Positions 4,355 to 36,081 of a stretch of DNA of 38,010 nucleotides are shown here, one piece after another. The notes beneath the pieces were generated by a model. That model did not search any database. It was not told the DNA's origin and saw nothing but the letters and a program-made list of their open reading frames with translations. Within the stretch, counting starts at the first letter, position 1; each line of letters opens with the position of its first letter. Made by a program: the position numbers and the translations under genes. This DNA is from Magnetococcales bacterium (GTDB lineage Bacteria; Pseudomonadota; Magnetococcia; Magnetococcales; JADGAP01): positions 1 through 38,010 of the forward strand of contig JADGAP010000012.1 in assembly GCA_015231965.1 (NCBI GenBank), in the 5' to 3' direction.

Positions 4355-4969
4355 GAGTCTTGGATCCCGATCCTTGCAGGGTCAGGGTGAAACAAAAGGA
4401 TGTATTCCGGTTTCGGCGCCAAAGAGAAAAACGCCGGACGAAGGCCCAGGGTTGATCAGCAAAAAATGCGCCAGTCATTGCGCTCCCCGGTCTCGCGGAG
4501 TCGCTTGCTCCGCAGCCATTCGGATGAAACCGGTTCACCATAGCAGAAAGCGCCGGAACTGCATAGCCCGAAGAGGAGGGGGGGCGGGCGGAGCGCCCTG
4601 TAAACATTGAATCCAATCTAAACTATAAAAATATTACGAGTTTCTGGAATCACGATGAGGGACCACTTTTCCGTTGTCAAACGCCAGCCGTCATGGCTAC
4701 ACTTTACCGGTGCAGCGGGAGGACTCTTTTGAGAATAGCCCTTCCGTTGGGGGCGCGTGGATCGTTCTTCCTGGCGGCGGATGGGGGGGCCCCCGCGTGA
4801 TTCAGGGCGGGCTGGTCCCGCGTCGGGGAGGGGCCATGGGCACCGCTCCTGATGGCCTGATCCTTGCTTGATTTGATCGCGGTCTGTCGGCTTGATGTGA
4901 CCGATTGCGCAACGTTTCGCCCCGTCGCCACCCTGGCGACTCCCTCAGCCCCGTTTTTCACGGAAGATC
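4355..4969. other. 615-base divergent intergenic region
   Basis: This stretch separates the minus-strand secretion operon from the plus-strand binding-protein/channel gene. I see no convincing coding region. It contains a perfect 6-bp hairpin (GCGGAG/CTCCGC, 4495-4513) without a T-run and an AT-rich island at about 4611-4640. A candidate plus-strand promoter is listed separately. It probably holds the control sequences of both units. Confidence 0.5.
4674..4703 (+). promoter_or_regulatory. Candidate sigma70-type promoter for the binding-protein/ion-channel gene
   Basis: TTGTCA (4674-4679) and TACACT (4698-4703) are separated by 18 bases. This would give a leader of roughly 260 bases before the ATG at 4970. 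The match is fair and the distance is long, so this is a weak prediction. Confidence 0.3.
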
Positions 4970-7132
4970 ATGACCAGAAAACTCATCATCGCGCTTCTCG
5001 TGGTCGTGGCCGTGGCGGTGGTAGCGGTCCTGACGACGAAGTCTTTTTCCGGCGGGAAAAAGGATACCTACTTCCTCGGCTTGGCCGCCCCCTTGACCGG
5101 TGAATTCAAGGATGCGGGGCTCTCCATGAAGCGGGGCGTCGCCCTGGCCGTCAAGGAGATGCAGGAGAGCGGCGAACTGGGCGACCTCAACCTGGAACTC
5201 CAGGTGGGCGACGATCAGTCGGTGGTGGGCGACGCGAAAAACGCCGTCCAGGTGGCCAAGGAGTTGACCTCCAACGAAAAGCTGCTCGGCGTGGTGGGCC
5301 ACTACTTCAGCCAGTCCACCATCGAGGCCGACAAGGTTTACATCGAGAAAAAAATTCCGGTCATCACCCCCACCTCCACCCACCCGGATGTGACGGCGGG
5401 CAGCGACTGGACCTTCAGCGTCATCTTCGACGACGCCTATCAAGGCTCCTTCCTGGCCAACTACGTGTTGTGGGGTCTGGGCCGTCAGCGCATCGCCGTC
5501 ATTCACGCCACCAATCTCTACAGCGTTTCGCTCAAGGATCAATTCGTCAAGGAATTGGCGCGCAATCGCTGGCGCCCCAGCGTGGTGATCGAAGTCCCCC
5601 TGGATGAAATGAAGGGCGGCGGCGAGGCCTTCAACCCCGCCTCTCTGCAAGGCCGTTTGCAGGAGTTGCAGCAGGCCGACATCATCTTCATCCCCTTCAA
5701 CTATAAAAACGCCGCCAAGCTGGTGCGTTTTCTGAAAAACAAGGGAATCCGCGCCGACTTCATCGGGCCGGAGAGCGTGGGCGGCGACCTGTTCGTCCGC
5801 GAGGCGGGGGTCTACGCCGACAACGTCTACGCCATCACCCCCTTCCTGCCCAACCTTTACGGCGAAGAGGCCCGCCTCTTTCAAATGCACTTTTTGAAAG
5901 AGTACCAAACCAGCCCCGACTGGATCGCCACCTACGCCTACGAGGCGGTGCGCCTTTACGCCAAGGCCATCAAGGAGGTGGGGCCGGATCGCGAGGGGAT
6001 CAAGAACGCCCTGGCCCGGATCAACTCCGAGGCCAACGCCATGCCCAGCATCGCCGGCGACCTCTACTTCAACAGCGCCGGATCCACCAAACGGGCCATC
6101 GCCATCGGTCAGGTGAAGGAGGGGACCTACCAACCCGCCCGCTTCCAGATCACCCCGGTCAAGTTTCCCGAACTGGTGCGGGCGCAAAAAGACCCCGGCA
6201 TCGTCTTTTACTGGGACGGCCGGATGATGAAACGCACCACCCTCGTCTTCACCGGTCTTCACGTCAAGGAGATCCGCGAGTTCGATCCCATCCAGGGGTC
6301 GTTCAAGGCCGACTTCCTGCTCTGGTTCCGCTGGGATCCCAACCGCAACCCCAAGCTCTCTTTCGAAATGACCCACGGTCGGGTGGAGACGGTGCGCATC
6401 CGCGACATGCACCAGGACGCGGTGAACAAAAACAATTTCATCATGTACGACGTCTCCGCCACCATGAAGGACAACTTCAACCTGGAACAGTATCCCTTCG
6501 ACAAGCAGACGTTGCGCATCCGCATCATGCCCAAGTTTTCCTCCAACGTCGAGTTCGGCAAGGAGATGCCCGAGGAGGACGTGATGCTCATCACCGACAT
6601 CTCCGACGACTCCTACTACAAGCGCAAGCTCGACTTCGGATCGTGGGAGGATATCGGCCACATCCAGTTCACCGGGGCCAAGGACTACATCTGGAGCTAC
6701 CGCAGCCCCAAGTTCAATGGCAATCTGTACAAGCTGGATCACTCCATCTACAGCTACAACGTCCACATGCAGCGCAAGGTGACGCAGTTCGTGGTGACCC
6801 TGCTGCCGTTGTTGGTGATCGTGGTCTCGGCCTATCTCACCTTCTTCATCAGCTACGAATACGTGGCCTCCCGCATCTCCCTGGGCATCACCTCCATGTT
6901 GTCCGCCATGGCCTTCCACGGCGTCAACAAGATTCAGGTGGGGTATTTGGTCAAGTCGGACGTGTTCTTCATGCTCACCTATTGGCTGATCTTTTTCTCG
7001 ATCATGGCCACGGTGGTGGGCAGCGCCTTCCACGTGCGCAAGCAGACCGCGGCGGCCAACCGGGTGGATACGGTCTTTTTGGTGGCCTATCCCTTCATGC
7101 TGCTGGGAGTGGTGCTCTACCTCTTCTCCTGA
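4970..7132 (+). CDS. Periplasmic binding protein (Leu/Ile/Val type) fused to a pentameric ligand-gated ion channel
   Basis: This 720-residue protein joins two families. Residues 5-22 are a hydrophobic signal or anchor segment. Residues ~31-400 read as a type I periplasmic binding protein of the branched-chain amino acid family (AAPLTGEFKDAG, DDQSVVGDAKNAVQVAKEL, FDDAYQGSFLANYVL). Residues ~420-600 read as a pLGIC extracellular beta-sandwich, with the Cys-loop-equivalent YPFDKQ at 508-513. Four membrane helices follow: M1 ~605-627 with its proline (LLPLLVIVVSAY), M2 ~633-651, M3 ~662-690 and M4 ~699-720. M2 reads SRISLGITSML, with Arg at 0' (residue 635) and Leu at 9' (residue 644), very like glycine-receptor M2. 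There is no acidic residue at -1' or -2'. The protein has no cysteine at all, as in other prokaryotic pLGICs that lack the disulfide. The likely role is an inner-membrane channel gated by, or modulated through, a periplasmic ligand. The ligand is unknown. Confidence 0.92.
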   Translation: MTRKLIIALLVVVAVAVVAVLTTKSFSGGKKDTYFLGLAAPLTGEFKDAGLSMKRGVALAVKEMQESGELGDLNLELQVGDDQSVVGDAKNAVQVAKELTSNEKLLGVVGHYFSQSTIEADKVYIEKKIPVITPTSTHPDVTAGSDWTFSVIFDDAYQGSFLANYVLWGLGRQRIAVIHATNLYSVSLKDQFVKELARNRWRPSVVIEVPLDEMKGGGEAFNPASLQGRLQELQQADIIFIPFNYKNAAKLVRFLKNKGIRADFIGPESVGGDLFVREAGVYADNVYAITPFLPNLYGEEARLFQMHFLKEYQTSPDWIATYAYEAVRLYAKAIKEVGPDREGIKNALARINSEANAMPSIAGDLYFNSAGSTKRAIAIGQVKEGTYQPARFQITPVKFPELVRAQKDPGIVFYWDGRMMKRTTLVFTGLHVKEIREFDPIQGSFKADFLLWFRWDPNRNPKLSFEMTHGRVETVRIRDMHQDAVNKNNFIMYDVSATMKDNFNLEQYPFDKQTLRIRIMPKFSSNVEFGKEMPEEDVMLITDISDDSYYKRKLDFGSWEDIGHIQFTGAKDYIWSYRSPKFNGNLYKLDHSIYSYNVHMQRKVTQFVVTLLPLLVIVVSAYLTFFISYEYVASRISLGITSMLSAMAFHGVNKIQVGYLVKSDVFFMLTYWLIFFSIMATVVGSAFHVRKQTAAANRVDTVFLVAYPFMLLGVVLYLFS

Positions 7133-7192
7133 ACCCGGGTTCAACGCATCAAGATCGACCATGACCCCATGGGTTGAACGAAAGGCGCCCGC

Positions 7193-8737
7193 ATGTTGAA
7201 AATTAAATTGACCACCCCCATCCTGATCCTGGCGATATTGCTGGAGTCGCTGCTGATCGTCTCGACGCTGTCAAGCTATTACAGCGTCAATGGCCTGAGC
7301 CGGATGGTCGAGCGGGCGGACAAGCAGGAGATCGATCTGGTGCGTTCCGTCTCGGCCCTGACCCACGCCCAGATGGAACAGACCATGCGCTTCTCCGAGG
7401 TGCTGCAACACTTCATCACCGAGCAGCAGGATCGGTTTCGCGCCGCCGACAACAGCTTCGTCCAGACCGGGCAGCGCTTCGCCGACCTGATCAAGAACGC
7501 CCGGCGCATCGTGCAAATCGCCCTGGACGGGGCCTCGGGAACCCGCCGCGCCGAATTGGACGCCGTGCTGACCTCCCTCAACGAAATTGAAAAAGATCAC
7601 GCCAACTTTGAACACTGGTGCAGCACCATCTCCAACGGCCTCTCCCAACTCAAGTTTCAGACCGAGGAAGAGCAGTCGCTGCAAAAGTTCGACTCGGAGG
7701 AGGACAAGCAGGCCAAGTTCAAACAGTACCTCACCCAGACCGCCTTTCGTCTGAGCGAGGAGAGCAGCCGTCTGGAAAAGCGGTTCCAAACCCTGATCCG
7801 CATGACGGAAAAAATGACCGAGAACCTCCCCGCGGACGTTCGGAACAAGGCCGACGCCTCCCTCCTCATCACCATCGGCCTGTTGGTCGTCTCCCTGGCG
7901 GGATTGGCGCTGATCGGCTGGATTCTGCGGCGGATGATCGCCGGGTCGTTGCGTCGGCCGTTGTCCGAGGTCTCCCGGGGGATGGACGCCATCCACTCCG
8001 CCGCCGCCGAAAACGCCGCAGTGTGGCGACAACTCAAGGAGGCCCACGACAGCCGCGCCGGTTTCATGGAGAGCGCCGGACTCCTCTCCAGCCGTCTGAC
8101 GGATTTGGCCCGGGAGAGCCTGGAGGGGACGGGGCGGACCCGGGATCTGCTGGAACAAAACGAAGCCGAGGTGCGCTTGGCGGGGGATTCGCTGCGCAAG
8201 TACGGCTCCGAGGTGGAGCGGGCCCGCCAGACCGGACAGGAGGTGGGCGGCTTGATGCATCGTCTGGAAGAGGCCCTGCAACAGGCCAAGATGATGGCCG
8301 CCAACGCCGGGCTGCAGGCGGGCAAGAGCGAGGCCACCCGCGGATTCGTCATCTTCGCCGACGAAATCCGCACCCAGACGCAGCACGGTGCCGACGCCCT
8401 CAACACCCTGGCGGGTCAACTGGAAAAGTTGGTGCGGCAGCTGGAGGCGGGCTATCTGGAGACCCGCGCCGTGGAGCGGGGGTTCACCAACCTGGAAAGC
8501 TTTTCGGCCCAGGCCAAGGGGGTGGTGGATGAAATTCACGGGGTGATGCGCAATCAGTCCGCCATGACCAAGGATCTGACCGAGGCGACGGGGCGTCTCA
8601 AAACCCTGCAAGAGGGCGGTGCCGGTCTCATCGACAAGGGCGGCGCGGCGGTATCGACCCTGGAGAGCGAAAGCGAGACCATCGCCGCCGTCCTCAAGGA
8701 GCTGACGCTCCACGTTCGGGCCGAGACCAAGGCTTGA
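7193..8737 (+). CDS. Chemoreceptor-like (MCP-like) membrane protein with degenerate signalling tip
   Basis: This 514-residue protein starts 60 bases after the channel gene on the same strand. TM1 is at ~9-28, a periplasmic helical region spans ~30-218, and TM2 is at ~222-244 (LLITIGLLVVSLAGLALIGW). A HAMP-like stretch (RRPLSEVSRGMDAI) and a long cytoplasmic coiled coil follow. Residues ~365-397 resemble the hairpin tip of chemoreceptors: AANAGLQAGKSEATRGF followed by VIFADEIRTQ. Compared with the family consensus NAAxEAARAGExGRGF, the Glu is Gln, the Arg is Lys and one residue is missing, so normal CheA/CheW contacts may be lost. Its placement suggests it works with the upstream channel as a sensor partner. 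No che genes are nearby. Confidence 0.75.
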   Translation: MLKIKLTTPILILAILLESLLIVSTLSSYYSVNGLSRMVERADKQEIDLVRSVSALTHAQMEQTMRFSEVLQHFITEQQDRFRAADNSFVQTGQRFADLIKNARRIVQIALDGASGTRRAELDAVLTSLNEIEKDHANFEHWCSTISNGLSQLKFQTEEEQSLQKFDSEEDKQAKFKQYLTQTAFRLSEESSRLEKRFQTLIRMTEKMTENLPADVRNKADASLLITIGLLVVSLAGLALIGWILRRMIAGSLRRPLSEVSRGMDAIHSAAAENAAVWRQLKEAHDSRAGFMESAGLLSSRLTDLARESLEGTGRTRDLLEQNEAEVRLAGDSLRKYGSEVERARQTGQEVGGLMHRLEEALQQAKMMAANAGLQAGKSEATRGFVIFADEIRTQTQHGADALNTLAGQLEKLVRQLEAGYLETRAVERGFTNLESFSAQAKGVVDEIHGVMRNQSAMTKDLTEATGRLKTLQEGGAGLIDKGGAAVSTLESESETIAAVLKELTLHVRAETKA

Positions 8738-8784
8738 CGCCGATGTGACGCCGATTCGTTCGATCGTCCGATGGTTGAAATTCC

Positions 8785-8830
8785 CCTTCCGCCGTCTCGC
8801 GACTCCTCTCGGGCGGCGGAAGGCGTTTTT
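8785..8830 (+). terminator. Rho-independent terminator closing the channel/receptor unit
   Basis: A perfect 10-bp stem, CCTTCCGCCG (8785-8794) with CGGCGGAAGG (8814-8823), is followed within three bases by five Ts (8826-8830). It lies 48 bases after the stop of the receptor-like gene, between convergent genes. Confidence 0.8.
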
Positions 8831-8856
8831 CGGGGGGAAGAGAGCGAGAAGGGGCG

Positions 8857-9342
8857 TTACCGCCCCACGTTGATGCGGGGGGTGTAGCCCACCGCCGAGC
8901 TTCCCCCGGGCAGCGCCAGCTTGACCCGGGTCAGGCTCGGACCGCTGCTGATCACCCGGAATTGCATCCCCCGCACGGTGAGAAAACAGCTTCCATGATC
9001 GATGAACCAGTCGAGGTCATCCCGCTCCACCGCCTCCATGGCACCCTCCATCGTCCCTTTTTCCAGGCAGAAGGGGTGGCCACCCACCGCCCAATACCGC
9101 CCCGCCGGACGAGGCGACAGGACCGGCTCGGGAACGTGGTCCAGGTTGCCGGGATGGACCACTGCCGGAACCGGTTCGGGTGCGGTGCGCTTGATGTAAT
9201 CCGTCAGCGTCACCCCCAACCAGGTGGCGACGAGGGGTGCCGCCACAAACAAGGTGAAGATGCGCCAACCCATGCGAGGCTTGGCAAAAACGTCATGAAT
9301 CATGGGAGCGGCGCTCATGGCTCTTCCTTCCCTTTTGATCAT
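8857..9342 (-). CDS. Small single-pass membrane protein of unknown function
   Basis: I do not recognise the family. The ATG at 9342 has a good ribosome site (GGGAGGA, about 7 bases upstream) and gives 161 residues. A second start at 9318 (MSAAPM) also has GGAAGG at good spacing and gives 153. One membrane helix is visible (IFTLFVAAPLVATWLGVTL), followed by a periplasmic-looking domain with two cysteines (HPFCLEKG and HGSCFLTVRG). The C-terminal part is beta-rich (FRVISSGPSLTRVKLALPGG). It is convergent with the receptor-like gene and divergent from parC. A longer upstream frame exists but lacks support. Confidence 0.6.
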   Translation of the reverse strand: MIKREGRAMSAAPMIHDVFAKPRMGWRIFTLFVAAPLVATWLGVTLTDYIKRTAPEPVPAVVHPGNLDHVPEPVLSPRPAGRYWAVGGHPFCLEKGTMEGAMEAVERDDLDWFIDHGSCFLTVRGMQFRVISSGPSLTRVKLALPGGSSAVGYTPRINVGR

Positions 9343-9659
9343 CACGGGTTCCTCCCGCTGGGGATCCCGCCAGGCGATGCGACGAATCCATCGCCCGCAA
9401 GGACAGCTATCTAATCCTTTGGACGTGGCGCGACCGAGGGAAAATCCATGAAGATCCATTTTATTCCCTAATGGATGCGGCGTTGCGGCAGGCATGCGTC
9501 CCCTCCGGCGCGGTGTTCGACTCGGTTTCACGCGGGCCATGTTGAGCGCCCCTTGCGACAATCAAGCAATAATTATACCTATGTAGGGGCTCTCGCCCGC
9601 GTCGGAGGGAACCGCCCGCCGCCGCCGTTTTTCTCTCCCTTGCCGTCGGACACCCTCGC
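9343..9659. other. 317-base intergenic region upstream of parC
   Basis: There is no convincing gene. The most AT-rich part, about 9560-9585, is the likeliest promoter area for parC. On the minus strand it contains a perfect TATAAT, but no matching -35 at standard spacing. I could not settle on a promoter for either direction. Confidence 0.4.
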
Positions 9660-13693: not shown

Positions 13694-15421
13694 ATGGCGA
13701 ACATGTTTCGACAGTGCCCGGATTCGGGGCTGTACTTTCACCGGGACGCCGAAGCGCTGATGAAGGCGCATGCGGTGTTGGCGGTGGTCTTTCTTCTGCT
13801 GGGCGGTGTTGGCGGATTGCTGATCGCCTTGACCCGAGCCCCCACAGTCCATTTGCTGAGCGCCGAAAACTTCTACATGGTGCTGACGTTCCACGGCACC
13901 GCCGTTTTGCTGTTCTGGATCATCTTCTTTGAAATCGCCGTACTCTACTTCGCCTCCTCGACGCTGTTGCGGGTGCGACCGGCGACTCCCTCCATCGGTT
14001 GGCTCGGTTTCCTGCTGATGTTGGGTGGGGCGATCATGACCACGGTGGCCATCTTTGCCGGCAACTCCAGCGTCATGTTCACCTCCTACGTCCCCATGCA
14101 GGCCTCGCCCTACTTCTATCTGGGCCTGATCCTCTTTGCGGTGGGGGCGCTGCTGGGCTGCTTCATCTTTCTGGGGACGCTGGTCATCGCCAAGGAAGAG
14201 AAGACCTATGAGGGGTCCATTCCGCTGGTGACCTTTGGTGCCGTGACGGCGGCCATCATCGCCATCTTCACCATCGCCACCGGTGCCATCATCCTCATCC
14301 CCACGTTCATGTGGTCGATGGGATGGATCTCCCACATCGATCCGGCGATGTACCGGGTTCTGTGGTGGGGCATGGGTCACTCCTCGCAGCAGATCAACGT
14401 GTCGGCGCACGTGGCGGTGTGGTATGCCATCGCCGCCATCGTCTTCGGTGCCAAGCCCATGTCGGAAAAGGTGAGCCGCGGGGCCTTCCTGCTCTACATC
14501 CTCTTCCTGCAACTGGCCAGCGCCCATCACCTGCTGGCTGACCCGGGCATCAGCTCCAACTGGAAGGTCTTCAACACCTCCTACGCCATGTACCTGGCGG
14601 TGCTGGCCAGCATGATCCACGGCCTCACCGTGCCCGGCTCCATCGAAGTGGCGCAACGCAAGAAGGGCTTCAACAACGGCCTGTTCGAGTGGTTGACCAA
14701 GGCCCCCTGGGGCAATCCGGTCTTTTCCGGCATGTTCCTGTCGCTGATCATCTTCGGCTTCATCGGCGGCATCACCGGCGTGGTCATGGGGACGGAACAG
14801 ATCAACCTCATCATCCACAACACCATCTTCGTTCCCGCGCACTTCCACGCCACCGTGGCGGTGGGCACGACCCTGGCGTTCATGGCCATCACCTACTTCC
14901 TGATTCCGGTCCTCTTCCGGCGCAAGCTGGTGATGCCGGGCCTGGCCAAGTGGCAGCCCTACATCTTCTCCGCGGGCATGATGATGCTGATCATGTTCCT
15001 GCTGGGCGCTGGCACCCTGGGCGTGCCCCGTCGTCACTGGGATGTCAACTTCGCCGACGCGGTGCTGAAGTATGAGTTCGCCGGAACCGCCATCACCTTG
15101 CTGGGTCTGGCGGCGGTGGGCGCGGTGTTGGCGGCGGTGGGCGGCGCGTTGTACTGCGTCATCGCCGTCTTCTCGCTGGTCTTCGGCGAAAAGCTTGATC
15201 CCCACGCCGGTCTGCTGCAAAGCTTTGGCGTGCCTTTGTCCCAGGCGGCCTACACCGTGGATCGTCCCAGCACCTTGGGTCTGTCGGCGGTGGAAACCCA
15301 CGGCCACGGTGAGGTGAGCGCCCCGGGAACCTTCGCCCTGGCGTTGGTCTTCCTGCTCTCCTTCGTGGTCTACTTCTTCATCAACGCCAAGTATCTGGCG
15401 TCCGTATGGCCCATGGGCTGA
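13694..15421 (+). CDS. Heme-copper oxidoreductase subunit I lacking the cross-linked Tyr; candidate sNOR-type NO reductase
   Basis: This 575-residue polytopic protein has about 13 membrane helices and aligns by motif with B-type (ba3) enzymes. Low-spin heme ligands are H67 (LTFHGTAV) and H385. The active-site heme ligand is H383 (VPAHFHATV). CuB ligands are H229 (GHSSQQ) and H278/H279 (SAHHLLADPG). The 49-residue spacing between H229 and H278 equals that of Thermus ba3. In oxygen reductases of this type the residue four after the first CuB His is the cross-linked Tyr (HPxVY); here it is Q233. The enzyme therefore probably cannot do normal O2 reduction and may reduce NO. A Tyr sits ten residues before H278, so a cbb3-like Tyr from the next helix is an alternative. 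It is commonly annotated as cytochrome c oxidase subunit I. Confidence 0.92.
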   Translation: MANMFRQCPDSGLYFHRDAEALMKAHAVLAVVFLLLGGVGGLLIALTRAPTVHLLSAENFYMVLTFHGTAVLLFWIIFFEIAVLYFASSTLLRVRPATPSIGWLGFLLMLGGAIMTTVAIFAGNSSVMFTSYVPMQASPYFYLGLILFAVGALLGCFIFLGTLVIAKEEKTYEGSIPLVTFGAVTAAIIAIFTIATGAIILIPTFMWSMGWISHIDPAMYRVLWWGMGHSSQQINVSAHVAVWYAIAAIVFGAKPMSEKVSRGAFLLYILFLQLASAHHLLADPGISSNWKVFNTSYAMYLAVLASMIHGLTVPGSIEVAQRKKGFNNGLFEWLTKAPWGNPVFSGMFLSLIIFGFIGGITGVVMGTEQINLIIHNTIFVPAHFHATVAVGTTLAFMAITYFLIPVLFRRKLVMPGLAKWQPYIFSAGMMMLIMFLLGAGTLGVPRRHWDVNFADAVLKYEFAGTAITLLGLAAVGAVLAAVGGALYCVIAVFSLVFGEKLDPHAGLLQSFGVPLSQAAYTVDRPSTLGLSAVETHGHGEVSAPGTFALALVFLLSFVVYFFINAKYLASVWPMG

Positions 15422-15440
15422 ACGATTGAGGCAGTGCTGG

Positions 15441-15472
15441 GGGGCGGGCCGCGAGGTCCGCCCCTTTTTTTT
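15441..15472 (+). terminator. Strong rho-independent terminator after the heme-copper operon
   Basis: A 10-bp stem (15441-15450 with 15455-15464, one G-T pair) is closed by the stable GNRA tetraloop GCGA and followed directly by eight Ts. It lies 20 bases after the catalytic subunit stop. The downstream SCO gene therefore needs its own promoter or depends on read-through. Confidence 0.88.
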
Positions 15473-15535
15473 GCCATTTGGGGTATGATGCCCCCAGGAG
15501 CGGCGTTTTTAACTTGGACCGGAGAGGTTGCAACC

Positions 15536-16375
15536 ATGGAGTCCGGACGGCGTGGCATTCGGGGCTGGGGTTGGGTGGCGTGGTGGGTCGGGATGCTGGT
15601 GCTGCTGGCCGTCCCCGCCCGGGGGGAGTTGATCTTTGACGCTGACGCCGCCCTTGCCTTGAGTCGATCCGCCATCGGCGGCGTCGTTTCGGGGGAGCAT
15701 CGTTTGATCAACCAGAGGGGGGAGTGGGTGCGGTTGTCGCAATTTCGCGGCAAGCCGGTGGTGATCAGTATGATCTACACCAGTTGTTTCGAGATCTGCT
15801 CCTTCGCCACCCGGCATTTGGCGGGGCAGGTGGAGAAGGCGCGAAAGGCCGCGGGGGCCGAGGCGTTCCACGTCCTGTCGGTGGGCTTCGATGTGCCCAA
15901 GGACACGCCCACCTCCTTGACCCTATTCGCCAAACAGCAGGGGGTGGCCGACGATCCTCGCTGGCAATGGCTCACCGGCGACCGGGAGACCCTCTCCCAG
16001 TTGGCCCGTGAGTTGGGGTTCACTTACGTTCCGTCCCCCCGGGGCTTTGATCATCTGGTGCAGGCGACCATTCTGGACGGGGAGGGGAAGGTTTATCGTC
16101 AAGTCTATGGAGATGTGTTCGACACGCCGCTGCTGGTCCAACCGCTGCTGGATCTCTCCCTGGGGCGCCCCCAACCCGATGAGACGGTGGTGGGGGAGTT
16201 GGTGCGCCGGGTGCGGCTCTTTTGCACCGTTTACGACCCCCACCGCGACGCCTACCGCTTCGACTATTCCATCTTCATCGGCATGGCGGTGGGGGCGTCG
16301 ATCCTCTTTTTCGGTTTCCGCTTTTGGTGGCGGGAGCGGCGCCGGGGGAAAGCCGCTTCTCAGGGGACGGGGTGA
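15536..16375 (+). CDS. SCO1/SenC-family copper chaperone
   Basis: This 279-residue protein starts at the ATG at 15536, after GGAGAGG at good spacing. It has a signal or anchor segment (VAWWVGMLVLLAVPARG) and a thioredoxin-fold SCO domain. The copper-binding residues are C84 and C88 in SCFEIC and H173 in FDHLVQAT, with a FDVPKDTP stretch between. A C-terminal membrane helix (IFIGMAVGASILFFGF) follows, so the protein may be anchored at both ends. SCO proteins deliver copper to the CuA site, which fits its place after the CuA enzyme. The same partner (SenC) follows norSY. Its 3' end overlaps the convergent antitoxin gene by 16 bases. Confidence 0.9.
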   Translation: MESGRRGIRGWGWVAWWVGMLVLLAVPARGELIFDADAALALSRSAIGGVVSGEHRLINQRGEWVRLSQFRGKPVVISMIYTSCFEICSFATRHLAGQVEKARKAAGAEAFHVLSVGFDVPKDTPTSLTLFAKQQGVADDPRWQWLTGDRETLSQLARELGFTYVPSPRGFDHLVQATILDGEGKVYRQVYGDVFDTPLLVQPLLDLSLGRPQPDETVVGELVRRVRLFCTVYDPHRDAYRFDYSIFIGMAVGASILFFGFRFWWRERRRGKAASQGTG

Positions 16376-32907: not shown

Positions 32908-35900
32908 TTACGCCTCGGCCTTGTCCGGTTTCTCCAACACCTTGACCTCCAGTTGGGGGAAGGGGATGACGATGCCCGCTTCCTGGAGTTTGTTCCAGAT
33001 GGCGAAGAGGGCTTCGGACTTGACGTCGTTTTCCGGAACCTTGCGCATGTCGGAGAAAAATTGCACCCGGAAGTTGATCGACGAGGCGGCGTACTCCCAC
33101 AGCAGCACCTTGAAGCCGGGGTTTTTGACCACGGATTCCACTTCCGTCAGGGCCTGCTCCATCACCTGCTTGGCCAGTCGCAGGTCGGTGTCGTAGCTGA
33201 CGCCGACCAGAAATATCGTGCGGACGTAGGGGTCGGAGTGGGTCCAGTTGACCAGGGGGCTGCTGATCACGTCGGCGATGGGGACGATGATTTCCAGATT
33301 GTCCCGGGAGCGGATGGTCAACGAGCGGACCCCGATGCGGGTGACGGTCCCCTCCTTGTCGCGGATGGTGACATAGTCGCCGGAGCGCAGGGGGCGTTCG
33401 ATGAGCAGCAGCAGGCCGCCGAAAAAGTTTTTGGCGATATCCTGCAACCCCAGGCCGATGCCCACGCCGGCGGCCCCGGCGAAGACCGCCAGACTGGTGA
33501 GGTCCATGCCGGCGGTGCGCAGGGTGAAGAGAAAGCCCAGGATGACCACCACATATTGGGCCAGCACCGCCAGGGAGTTGCGCACCCCCAGGTCGACGAC
33601 GGCGGAGAGCAGCCAGCGGTAGAAAATTTGCCTGGTCCAGTGTCCCAGCCAGACCAGCACGGCGATGATCACCACCACCATCAGGATGGATCCCAAGGAG
33701 ATGTCGCTCTTGCCCAGGCCGAAAATGGGGGTGAAGAGCAGCGACTTGAGAAAACGCATCACCGGGGACTCCTCGCCCCAGCCGTAAAGATGGAACAACA
33801 CCGCCCAGGCCCCGAAAAAGACCCCCAGGCGGGAGATGCGGTGGAGGGGGGTCAACACCCCTTGGGACCACAGCCCGCCCTGACCCAGGCGGGTGGTCCA
33901 GCGGTAGAGGAAGGAGAAGAGATCCTGCACGATGCCGTTGGCCGCCAACCAGCCGGTCAGCACCAGGAGAAACCACCCCAGGCCGCCTCCCACCGCGGCG
34001 GCCAGCCCCAGATAGCCCGCCAGCCCCAGCAGCACCGCCGAGAGAATGGAGAGGGGGGCCAGCAGACTCAACCATTGGGCCATTTTGAACCAATACGGCC
34101 CCAATCGGGGTTTGACCCGCTCCAGGGTCAGGCGGCGGATGGGCCGCATGGGGATGAGCAGCAGCAGCACGAAGAGCATGAAGAGCCGGTCGGCCACCGC
34201 CAGGACCGGCGGCGAGAAGAAGGCCAGCCGTCCCAGCAGCACCACGGCGGTCAACCCGCCGCCCAGCGCCGCCACCCGGAAAATTTGCCGATAGAGTCGG
34301 GGCTGGCGCCGTTCCGGGGCGACGAAGGGCGAGACCAACGCCAACCACGCCAGATCGATGGCCCCCTTGGCCGCCAGCAGCGGCAGCAGCGCCGTCGCCA
34401 GCAGATGCAAGGTGATGGAGGAGAGCCCCAACTGCCACGCCGCCAGCAGCGGCATGCCCGCCAGCATCACCGGCAGGATCTCCATACGCACCAGTTCCAG
34501 GGCCATGCGGGCGGCGCGCCGGGTGAAGGCCGCCTCCCCCTCCCCCTGGGAGCGTTCGGAGACGGTCCTGGCCAGGAAGCGCACCCCCAGCAGCGCCCCG
34601 ATCCAGGCCATCTGGGCCAGGAGCAGCATGGCCCACTCCTTGAGGCTGCTGCGGCGCAAGGCCAGCAACAGATCCTCGCCGATCTCCCACGAACGGCGCA
34701 GCAGCACCAGCGGGGCCTGGGCCAACTCCTGGGCCAGATTGGTCCAGGAGTCCCAGTCGACGGGCAACTGGGAGCGGGTCAGCAACCCTTCCCGCACCTC
34801 CTTTTGATGCACCGTCTCCAGCCGCGCCCGTTGGGTTTGCAGGCCGTCCAGCAGCACTTCCACGGCCTCGCTCAGCCCGGCGTAATCTTTTTCCAACTTG
34901 TCCAGCAGCGTCTTGCCCTCGGCGGGTTCGCTCCCCCCCCGGGAGACGCGGCGATAATGAAAGAGACTACGCTTCTCCTCCAACAGGGTCAGGCTCAACC
35001 CCAGGGATTGTTGCAAGGTGAGGTTGAGCCGCAAGGCCCGCTCCACCGCCTCCGGACCCGGAGCCCCCAGCGCCAGCAGCGAATCCACCGCCAGGGATTC
35101 ACTGGAGGCCTGGGCCTGCTTCAACTCCATCTGCAACAAAAACAGCCGCTCCTCGGCGTTGAGCAGCCGGGTCTCCAGCAGGCGCAACTGGGGCTGATGG
35201 GCGCCGCCGCTCCGATCCGTCTGCAACGATACCTGACCGCGCAGCTTTTCCGCCTCCTTTTGAAAATAGCGGCGCTCCTGTCCCACCCGCCGCACCAGGG
35301 TTTCCAGGTTGGCCTGCAGGCGGCGCTCCTCCTGCTTGCGGTAGATCCGCTCCAACCCCAGACGCCAACTGTGGGCCAACTCCCAACGGCGACGGTGGAT
35401 CCCTTGCCAACTGTTGAGATTTTCCTCGTTGGCCGACTCCAGGGCTTGCGCCTCCCGACCGTTTTCCACCGCGGCGCGAATGGCTCGCCCCTGTTCGGAC
35501 TGGGAGTCCCGCCCCAGCCGGCTCCATTCCTGCTCCAGCTTGCTTACCGCCAGCTTGCGCTCCAGCACCGACGAGCGGGCCCGGTCCCACTCCACCTCGG
35601 ACTCTTGCAGGCGCAAGCGGGCGATCTCCTCCGAGAGGCGGGCTTCGTCGATCTGGGCCAAGGCGATCCTGCCTTGGGCGGCGCGATCCAGGCGGGAGGG
35701 GAGATCCTTCTTGCGGGCGACCAAATCTTGCTCTTCCCGGGCCAGGCCGCTCCGCTCCGCCTGCATGTCCTCCCGCCGAATCTCCAGCAGGGTGAGGGCG
35801 GAAAGGTCGGGCGGGGGTTCGTCGTCCACGACCTGGGCGGTCTCCTCCGCAGCAGGCTCGGCGGCGGGGGATTGGGCCAAAACCGGCGACGCCGGGGCCA

Positions 35901-35952
35901 TCAGGCAGGCGGCCAGCAAGGCCGAACGCAGCAGGGACAAAAGTGGGCGCAT
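32908..35952 (-). CDS. Large MscS-family mechanosensitive channel (MscK/KefA-like)
   Basis: This protein has 1014 residues from the ATG at 35952, whose product starts with a clear signal peptide (LLRSALLAACLMAPASPVLA). Residues ~30-480 form a periplasmic region of long coiled coils with many charged heptads. About eight additional membrane helices follow (~500-780), then the MscS core. The pore helix reads AVFAGAAGVGIGLGLQDIAK followed by NFFGGLLLL near 820-845, and the beta domain starts RSGDYVTIRDKEGTVTRIG. The C-terminal vestibule (FRVQFFSDMRKVPENDVKSE) and a PFPQLEV end complete the fold. It would open under membrane tension to release solutes during osmotic downshock. It lies 129 bases after nhaD on the same strand, so a joint ion/osmotic stress unit is plausible. 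Confidence 0.93.
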   Translation of the reverse strand: MRPLLSLLRSALLAACLMAPASPVLAQSPAAEPAAEETAQVVDDEPPPDLSALTLLEIRREDMQAERSGLAREEQDLVARKKDLPSRLDRAAQGRIALAQIDEARLSEEIARLRLQESEVEWDRARSSVLERKLAVSKLEQEWSRLGRDSQSEQGRAIRAAVENGREAQALESANEENLNSWQGIHRRRWELAHSWRLGLERIYRKQEERRLQANLETLVRRVGQERRYFQKEAEKLRGQVSLQTDRSGGAHQPQLRLLETRLLNAEERLFLLQMELKQAQASSESLAVDSLLALGAPGPEAVERALRLNLTLQQSLGLSLTLLEEKRSLFHYRRVSRGGSEPAEGKTLLDKLEKDYAGLSEAVEVLLDGLQTQRARLETVHQKEVREGLLTRSQLPVDWDSWTNLAQELAQAPLVLLRRSWEIGEDLLLALRRSSLKEWAMLLLAQMAWIGALLGVRFLARTVSERSQGEGEAAFTRRAARMALELVRMEILPVMLAGMPLLAAWQLGLSSITLHLLATALLPLLAAKGAIDLAWLALVSPFVAPERRQPRLYRQIFRVAALGGGLTAVVLLGRLAFFSPPVLAVADRLFMLFVLLLLIPMRPIRRLTLERVKPRLGPYWFKMAQWLSLLAPLSILSAVLLGLAGYLGLAAAVGGGLGWFLLVLTGWLAANGIVQDLFSFLYRWTTRLGQGGLWSQGVLTPLHRISRLGVFFGAWAVLFHLYGWGEESPVMRFLKSLLFTPIFGLGKSDISLGSILMVVVIIAVLVWLGHWTRQIFYRWLLSAVVDLGVRNSLAVLAQYVVVILGFLFTLRTAGMDLTSLAVFAGAAGVGIGLGLQDIAKNFFGGLLLLIERPLRSGDYVTIRDKEGTVTRIGVRSLTIRSRDNLEIIVPIADVISSPLVNWTHSDPYVRTIFLVGVSYDTDLRLAKQVMEQALTEVESVVKNPGFKVLLWEYAASSINFRVQFFSDMRKVPENDVKSEALFAIWNKLQEAGIVIPFPQLEVKVLEKPDKAEA

Positions 35953-36081
35953 GGCGTTCCGGGGAGCAAAATTCCGTTCAACACGGGAGACGAAAAAGGG
36001 GGTGGGAGAGGCCATGAACCCCTCCCAACCCCTCATTGTGCCGAAAAGAGACGCGCCACGCCAGTTGGCGGATGCGCCCCG

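Follow-up and report, generated by a model that had tools for sequence, protein, structure and literature searches.

The fusion gene and its product

The stretch of DNA analyzed here (the window, 38,010 nucleotides) makes up one entire contig of a draft Magnetococcales genome of 3.8 Mb in 314 contigs. At positions 4970 to 7132 (+) it carries an uninterrupted frame, from ATG to TGA, for a 720-aa protein in which a type-I periplasmic binding protein (PBP-I) is joined to a pentameric ligand-gated ion channel (pLGIC). A second gene on the same strand (7193 to 8737, 514 aa) begins 60 bp after it and encodes a partner with a degenerate methyl-accepting chemotaxis protein (MCP) signaling hairpin. A 734-aa antisense frame (4958 to 7162, −) overlaps the whole fusion gene, and its homologues differ in length, so we treated it as a shadow of the GC-rich coding sequence. 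Further along the window, a cytochrome oxidase subunit I gene is followed by a SCO1/SenC gene (13694 to 16375, +).

The fusion protein starts with a hydrophobic helix at residues 3 to 26 (4976 to 5047, +), evident from hydropathy and the AF2 model, that could be either a signal or an uncleaved membrane anchor. A LivJ/LivK-like PBP-I domain occupies residues 35 to 384 (5072 to 6121, +), where Peripla_BP_6 matched with an E value of 4e-35 (122.5 bits against the Pfam cut-off of 31.7), in agreement with Foldseek and with the alignment to 2lbp and ligand triad described below. The pLGIC extracellular (ligand-binding) beta-sandwich, delimited by NCBIfam, an ortholog profile, AF2 and Foldseek, covers residues 412 to 602 (6203 to 6775, +) and includes the Pro-loop YPFDKQ at residues 508 to 513 (6491 to 6508, +). 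The four-helix transmembrane domain, M1 to M4 (6779 to 7126, +), was recognized from AF2 and from a profile match to the transmembrane domains of GlyR and GABA-A receptors; AF2 placed its helices at residues 604 to 626, 632 to 652, 663 to 689 and 693 to 719, the second being the pore helix M2 (6863 to 6925, +). A sequence-only reading of the locus had proposed that a single frame joins a binding protein to a channel with four membrane helices, and both its domain limits and the two motifs it singled out, YPFDKQ and the M2 string SRISLGITSML (residues 634 to 644), hold in the translation and in the domain and fold searches.

In the channel half, Neur_chan_memb scored 22.5 bits on residues 610 to 707 (E = 1.5e-4), under its Pfam cut-off of 28.1, and LGIC_1 of NCBIfam matched residues 496 to 709 with an E value of 2e-11, also under its cut-off; thus, the HMM check proposed earlier succeeded for Peripla_BP_6 but gave only subthreshold matches for Neur_chan_memb. 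Homology to solved pLGICs was nevertheless clear at the profile level. A single-sequence search of the PDB linked the first half of the protein to LivJ/LivK-type proteins and its end to GABA-A and glycine receptors, and a profile built from the channel halves of 13 orthologs matched the GLIC/GlyR chimera 4x5t (E = 2.5e-16, covering M1 to M4 and the C-terminal half of the sandwich), GLIC (E = 1.3e-9), and chains of GABA-A, GlyR and GluCl. The AF2 prediction, a monomer built from the window protein and 16 homologues, showed a clamshell, a beta-sandwich and four helices with a mean pLDDT of 80. The best 50 Foldseek matches of the whole model were all PBP-I/LivJ-like, and the best 50 for the channel half, a weak query model (pLDDT 66.6), were all pLGICs. 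Across 17 sequences, Y508, P509, F510, D511 and Q513 of the Pro-loop were invariant, as was the basic pre-M1 residue R602.

We regard the identity of the product as PBP-I joined to pLGIC as near certain. The architecture itself is not new, having been known since 2005, when Tasneem et al. (PMC549065) reported PBP-I/pLGIC fusions and proposed a role in chemoreception; where the sequence-only reading mentioned surveys that noted extra N-terminal domains, this paper describes exactly the present fusion. The PBP-I/ART-LGIC proteins of M. magnetotacticum and B. japonicum in that paper have the same order of PBP-I, pLGIC extracellular domain and 4-TM pore, although they probably represent other subfamilies, given that our family-motif scan of 84,980 species genomes returned none from Magnetospirillum or Bradyrhizobium. 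We found no functional study of a PBP-I/pLGIC fusion in the literature, as the earlier reading had supposed. Its parallel with ionotropic glutamate receptors stands for the clamshell and fails for the pore: both proteins carry PBP-type clamshells outside the membrane, but in glutamate receptors an unrelated, K-channel-like pore interrupts a PBP-II domain, whereas here a single PBP-I is followed by a pLGIC pore, so the likeness is one of analogy only and the product is not a glutamate-receptor-type channel. DeCLIC, the pLGIC of Desulfofustis, is the only pLGIC with an extra N-terminal domain for which we found a structure in the literature. It likewise has an additional periplasmic module, but this consists of two jelly-roll lobes (PMC9897478) rather than a PBP-I clamshell.

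The predicted amino-acid site and the pore helix

Alignment of the clamshell to the E. coli leucine-binding protein (LBP, 2lbp) placed S114, T137 and E268 of the fusion on LBP residues S79, T102 and E226, which we take to contact the ammonium and carboxylate groups of the bound amino acid. This triad was invariant in all 20 family members compared (19 Magnetococcia copies and L091), which suggests that selection maintains ligand binding, and it was mostly lost in other PBP fusions. The difference suggests an L-alpha-amino acid as the ligand here and other ligands elsewhere, and the prediction of an L-alpha-amino acid is well supported by the residue pattern. With a Peripla_BP_6 fold and an intact alpha-amino-acid triad, residues 35 to 384 share both fold and ligand contacts with the LivJ/LivK branched-chain amino-acid binding proteins; those proteins, however, serve an ABC importer, whereas the clamshell of the fusion is covalently joined to a channel.

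The M2 helix was equally constrained. Among 18 aligned sequences, Arg 0' (R635 in the window protein), Gly 4', Met 12', His 15', Asn 18' and Lys 19' were invariant, position 9' was Leu in 17 (L644), and position −5' was Glu or Asp in every case. Position −1' was Ser or Thr, and position −2' was Ala or Ser in 16 sequences, Pro in one and Gly in one, leaving no acidic residue at either position in any of the 18. Anion-selective pLGICs combine a basic 0' residue with the absence of acid at −1' and −2', and the family shows both features; the Pro at −2' that is typical of GlyR and GABA-A receptors occurred in only 1 of the 18. In profile alignments, the M2 register matched that of these receptors, which are also the closest PDB sequence matches of the channel end and share Arg 0', Leu 9', the −5' acid and the lack of acid at −1' and −2'. 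The fusion differs from them in lacking the Cys-loop cysteines, in its short M3-M4 loop and in its extra clamshell, and it differs from DeCLIC, which has acidic rings at the cytoplasmic mouth of the pore, in having no acid at −1' or −2'. The family M2 is also similar to the A-[RK] anion motif that Tasneem et al. (PMC549065) give. The glycine-receptor-like pore noted in the sequence-only reading is borne out by these matches, its hint of anion selectivity is strengthened, and the pore of the family is likely to be anion-selective as judged from M2. By eye, the translations of three divergent PBP-pLGICs (L055, L058 and L127) showed an acidic residue near −2', which suggests that the anion-type family has cation-type relatives.

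Family distribution and the chemoreceptor-like partner

The earlier reading had raised the question of how often the fusion occurs. The family was present in 18 of 48 Magnetococcia genomes, two of which had two copies, for a total of 20 copies (one cut by a contig end), with channel-half identities of 46 to 55%. A peptide-pattern scan of the 84,980 species genomes, which used family-specific peptides that more distant PBP-pLGICs escape, found no carriers other than Magnetococcales and Candidatus Magnetocorallium paracelense (Nitrospirota), whose copy was 33% identical. Profile and BLAST searches added divergent PBP-pLGICs inside the class (L054 to L056 and L058) and outside it (L127 and L134). 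In one of these, the PBP-pLGIC gene (L056, 7598 to 9925, −) overlaps by about 22 bp a 401-aa gene (6415 to 7620, −) that matches the pLGIC extracellular profile without a PBP, and we consider the pair a candidate heteromeric bacterial pLGIC. A fold search also returned a pLGIC-like protein from a Megaviridae environmental sample (BFVD A0A5J6VL22); a PHROGs search gave no match.

The host genome encodes MamM and MamB above the NCBI curated cut-offs and, beside MamB, a MamQ-like protein under its cut-off (G000:C110, about 12.1 to 20.0 kb; L156 and L157). Given these genes and relatives in the named genome collection that are Magnetococcales MAGs, we consider the host to be a magnetotactic coccus. 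MamM was above its cut-off in 42 of the 48 Magnetococcia genomes, indicating that the class is nearly all magnetotactic. We take Candidatus Magnetocorallium to be a magnetotactic lineage as well, so both host groups of the family are magnetotactic, although MamM is too widespread in the class to set carriers of the family apart.

A homologous partner gene lay downstream of the fusion, on the same strand, in all 20 readable loci (19 from Magnetococcia and one from Nitrospirota). The partners were 500 to 575 aa long, and the gap was 0 to 96 bp in 17 loci and 287 bp in the Nitrospirota locus; in two loci the partner start is uncertain, the called frame overlapping the channel gene. In the window copy, hydropathy placed membrane helices at residues 10 to 28 and 224 to 242 on either side of a periplasmic part of approximately 190 residues, for which relatives gave weak TarH/4HB matches. 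The partner thus has the flanking helices of an MCP, but MCPsignal scored 24.6 bits against a Pfam cut-off of 34.6. Across nine partners it reached at most 36 bits, falling under the cut-off in eight and exceeding it only in L091, and no HAMP domain was matched in the nine at an E value of 0.1 or below. The window partner did match PDB 3zx6, a HAMP-MCP I fusion (E = 1.2e-7), and the hairpin core NLLAT..SAEA.R.....F.VF..E[IL]K is conserved, with the hairpin one residue short at its tip. The partners diverge fast, with about 22 to 23% identity to the window copy, and pairing is kept nonetheless. The gene was absent beside the divergent PBP-pLGICs (L054 to L058) and the MscS fusions described below, which marks it as specific to the family of the window fusion. 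We found no published report of the pairing; the operons mentioned in the consulted part of Tasneem et al. (PMC549065) contain PBP-II or Cache genes, with no mention there of a chemoreceptor-like partner or of MscS relatives. The pairing seems to be new; neither it nor the MscS variant treated below had been noticed in the sequence-only reading.

In the model that we favor, with about even confidence, the fusion forms a homopentameric, amino-acid-gated anion channel that works with its chemoreceptor-like partner. The product of 4970 to 7132 would be one subunit of an inner-membrane homopentamer, which fits the single pLGIC found in the host genome, and the LivJ-type clamshell of each subunit would face the periplasm. 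Clamshell closure around an L-alpha-amino acid would signal to the pLGIC beta-sandwich and from there, through the contact between the Pro-loop and pre-M1, to M2, opening an anion-preferring pore. The invariance of R602 (the pre-M1 Arg) and D511 (the Pro-loop Asp) was counted in favor of this clamshell-to-pore gating, and Tasneem et al. (PMC549065) link a charge pair of this kind to gating. The partner, as the membrane chemoreceptor-like protein of an operon-like pair, would most likely read the channel or its ligand into a chemotaxis response. Pentamer formation, clamshell gating, anion flux and taxis coupling are all steps that we infer, and the coupling, which draws on the gene pairing and the degenerate hairpin, is the weakest of them. 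Given the degenerate hairpin, the lack of a HAMP match and the shortened tip, the partner may not reach CheA, and we counted the approximately 25 canonical chemoreceptors already encoded in the host genome against a chemosensory partner.

Alternatively, the fusion might stand alone as an amino-acid-gated anion channel that controls osmotic state, pH or membrane potential, and the partner might be an accessory subunit or a fragment captured from a receptor, with no part in chemotaxis signaling. Loss of part of the signaling tip, the missing HAMP match and fast divergence under maintained pairing all agree with this alternative, which we nevertheless find rather unlikely, given that a purely structural helper would have no need of the hairpin core that is still conserved. 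Less likely again is a clamshell that acts as a modulator: as in GLIC or DeCLIC, protons, divalent ions or a ligand bound in the pLGIC site would work the gate, and the amino acid would do no more than tune it. In DeCLIC the extra N-terminal domain does influence gating, and the fusion may answer to a different ligand in its pLGIC site, but the amino-acid triad is invariant in all 20 members. A pore that is cation-selective or nonconducting despite Arg 0' is very improbable: selectivity is read here from sequence alone, and L055 and L127 appear by eye to have a −2' acid, yet acid is lacking at −1' and −2' in all 18 family sequences, and Arg 0' and the acidic −5' stand in the GlyR/GABA-A register. 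A draft in 314 contigs might invite the suspicion that misassembly or a frameshift error fused two genes, but this is ruled out by 18 more full-length homologues, from other assemblies and two phyla, each of which likewise has a single frame.

The sensor pair on MscS channels

The class search also returned proteins of approximately 1000 aa that matched the extracellular domain alone and not the pLGIC pore. These proteins, about 930 to 1040 aa in length, combine Peripla_BP_6, a pLGIC-like extracellular domain and the MscS beta-domain (MS_channel_2nd, E values down to 4e-21) and were found in many Magnetococcia and beyond the class, in L059 to L062, L065 to L068, L070 to L074, L094 and L126 (for example, L068, 6327 to 9434, +). 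Their middle domain aligned by hhalign with that of the PBP-I/pLGIC family (98.4%, E = 5e-15) and, over 172 columns and approximately the full domain, with that of the L054 to L058 group (98.9%, E = 4e-17), whereas every comparison that involved another domain of these proteins came out under 1%. An MscS-side profile reached L127, a PBP-pLGIC whose pore is of the pLGIC type (E = 1e-31), as well as the window extracellular domain (E = 7e-11); the pLGIC-side profile reached the MscS fusions with E values down to 3e-11, and a profile of L054 to L056 matched GLIC (E = 6e-4). The MscS-type extracellular profile alone matched no pLGIC in the PDB, so the pLGIC identity of this domain rests on profile links through the PBP-pLGICs, and the simple Magnetococcia pLGIC L069 gave no hhalign signal against it. 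In a tree of the extracellular domains, the MscS fusions formed one group (100/99), with L127 beside it at lower support (91/84). These profile comparisons show that the extracellular domains on the two pores are homologous.

Outside the class, one Thiotrichales MAG (L094) has an MscS fusion, and so does one other genus, in which L126 was read through and four more genomes had the same domain in frames of 952 to 955 aa, several on single contigs. Two longer proteins of 1138 to 1168 aa (L128, 2031 to 5534, +; L129, 4859 to 8272, −) also join PBP, pLGIC-type domain and MscS, and their C-terminal extension past MscS looks like a cyclic-nucleotide-binding domain, possibly giving one chain with ligand domains outside and inside. 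A split form was seen in L064 (−), where a PBP plus pLGIC-type gene (7363 to 9513) is followed after 13 bp by an MscS plus cyclic-nucleotide-binding gene (5920 to 7350). Downstream of the MscS fusions in L066, L068, L071, L072 and L074, at 25 to 38 bp, lies a gene of approximately 550 aa of the ABC exporter type; scans of the L068 and L072 copies matched ABC_membrane and ABC_tran. The window has an MscS-family channel of its own (32908 to 36036, −; 1042 aa), with a long N-terminal part in which no pLGIC-type domain was detected. Our full-text search, which covered open-licence papers only and is weak evidence, returned no report of MscS channels with PBP or pLGIC domains, and the fusions are apparently undescribed.

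We lean slightly toward the view that the PBP-I clamshell and the pLGIC-type extracellular domain constitute a portable ligand-sensing gate carried on unrelated pLGIC and MscS pores, which would give ligand-gated MscS channels in Magnetococcia, the Thiotrichales MAG and the further genus. The sensor pair would then gate MscS as we propose that it gates the pLGIC pore.

In summary, the invariant amino-acid site, the anion-type pore and the obligate partner of the PBP-I/pLGIC family make the old proposal of a role for bacterial pLGICs in taxis directly testable, and the family offers a tractable case in which to test the coupling of a clamshell to a Cys-loop pore. If the sensor pair does gate MscS, the sensing half of neurotransmitter receptors would be a module independent of the pore, and a tension-gated channel family would be linked to chemical sensing.
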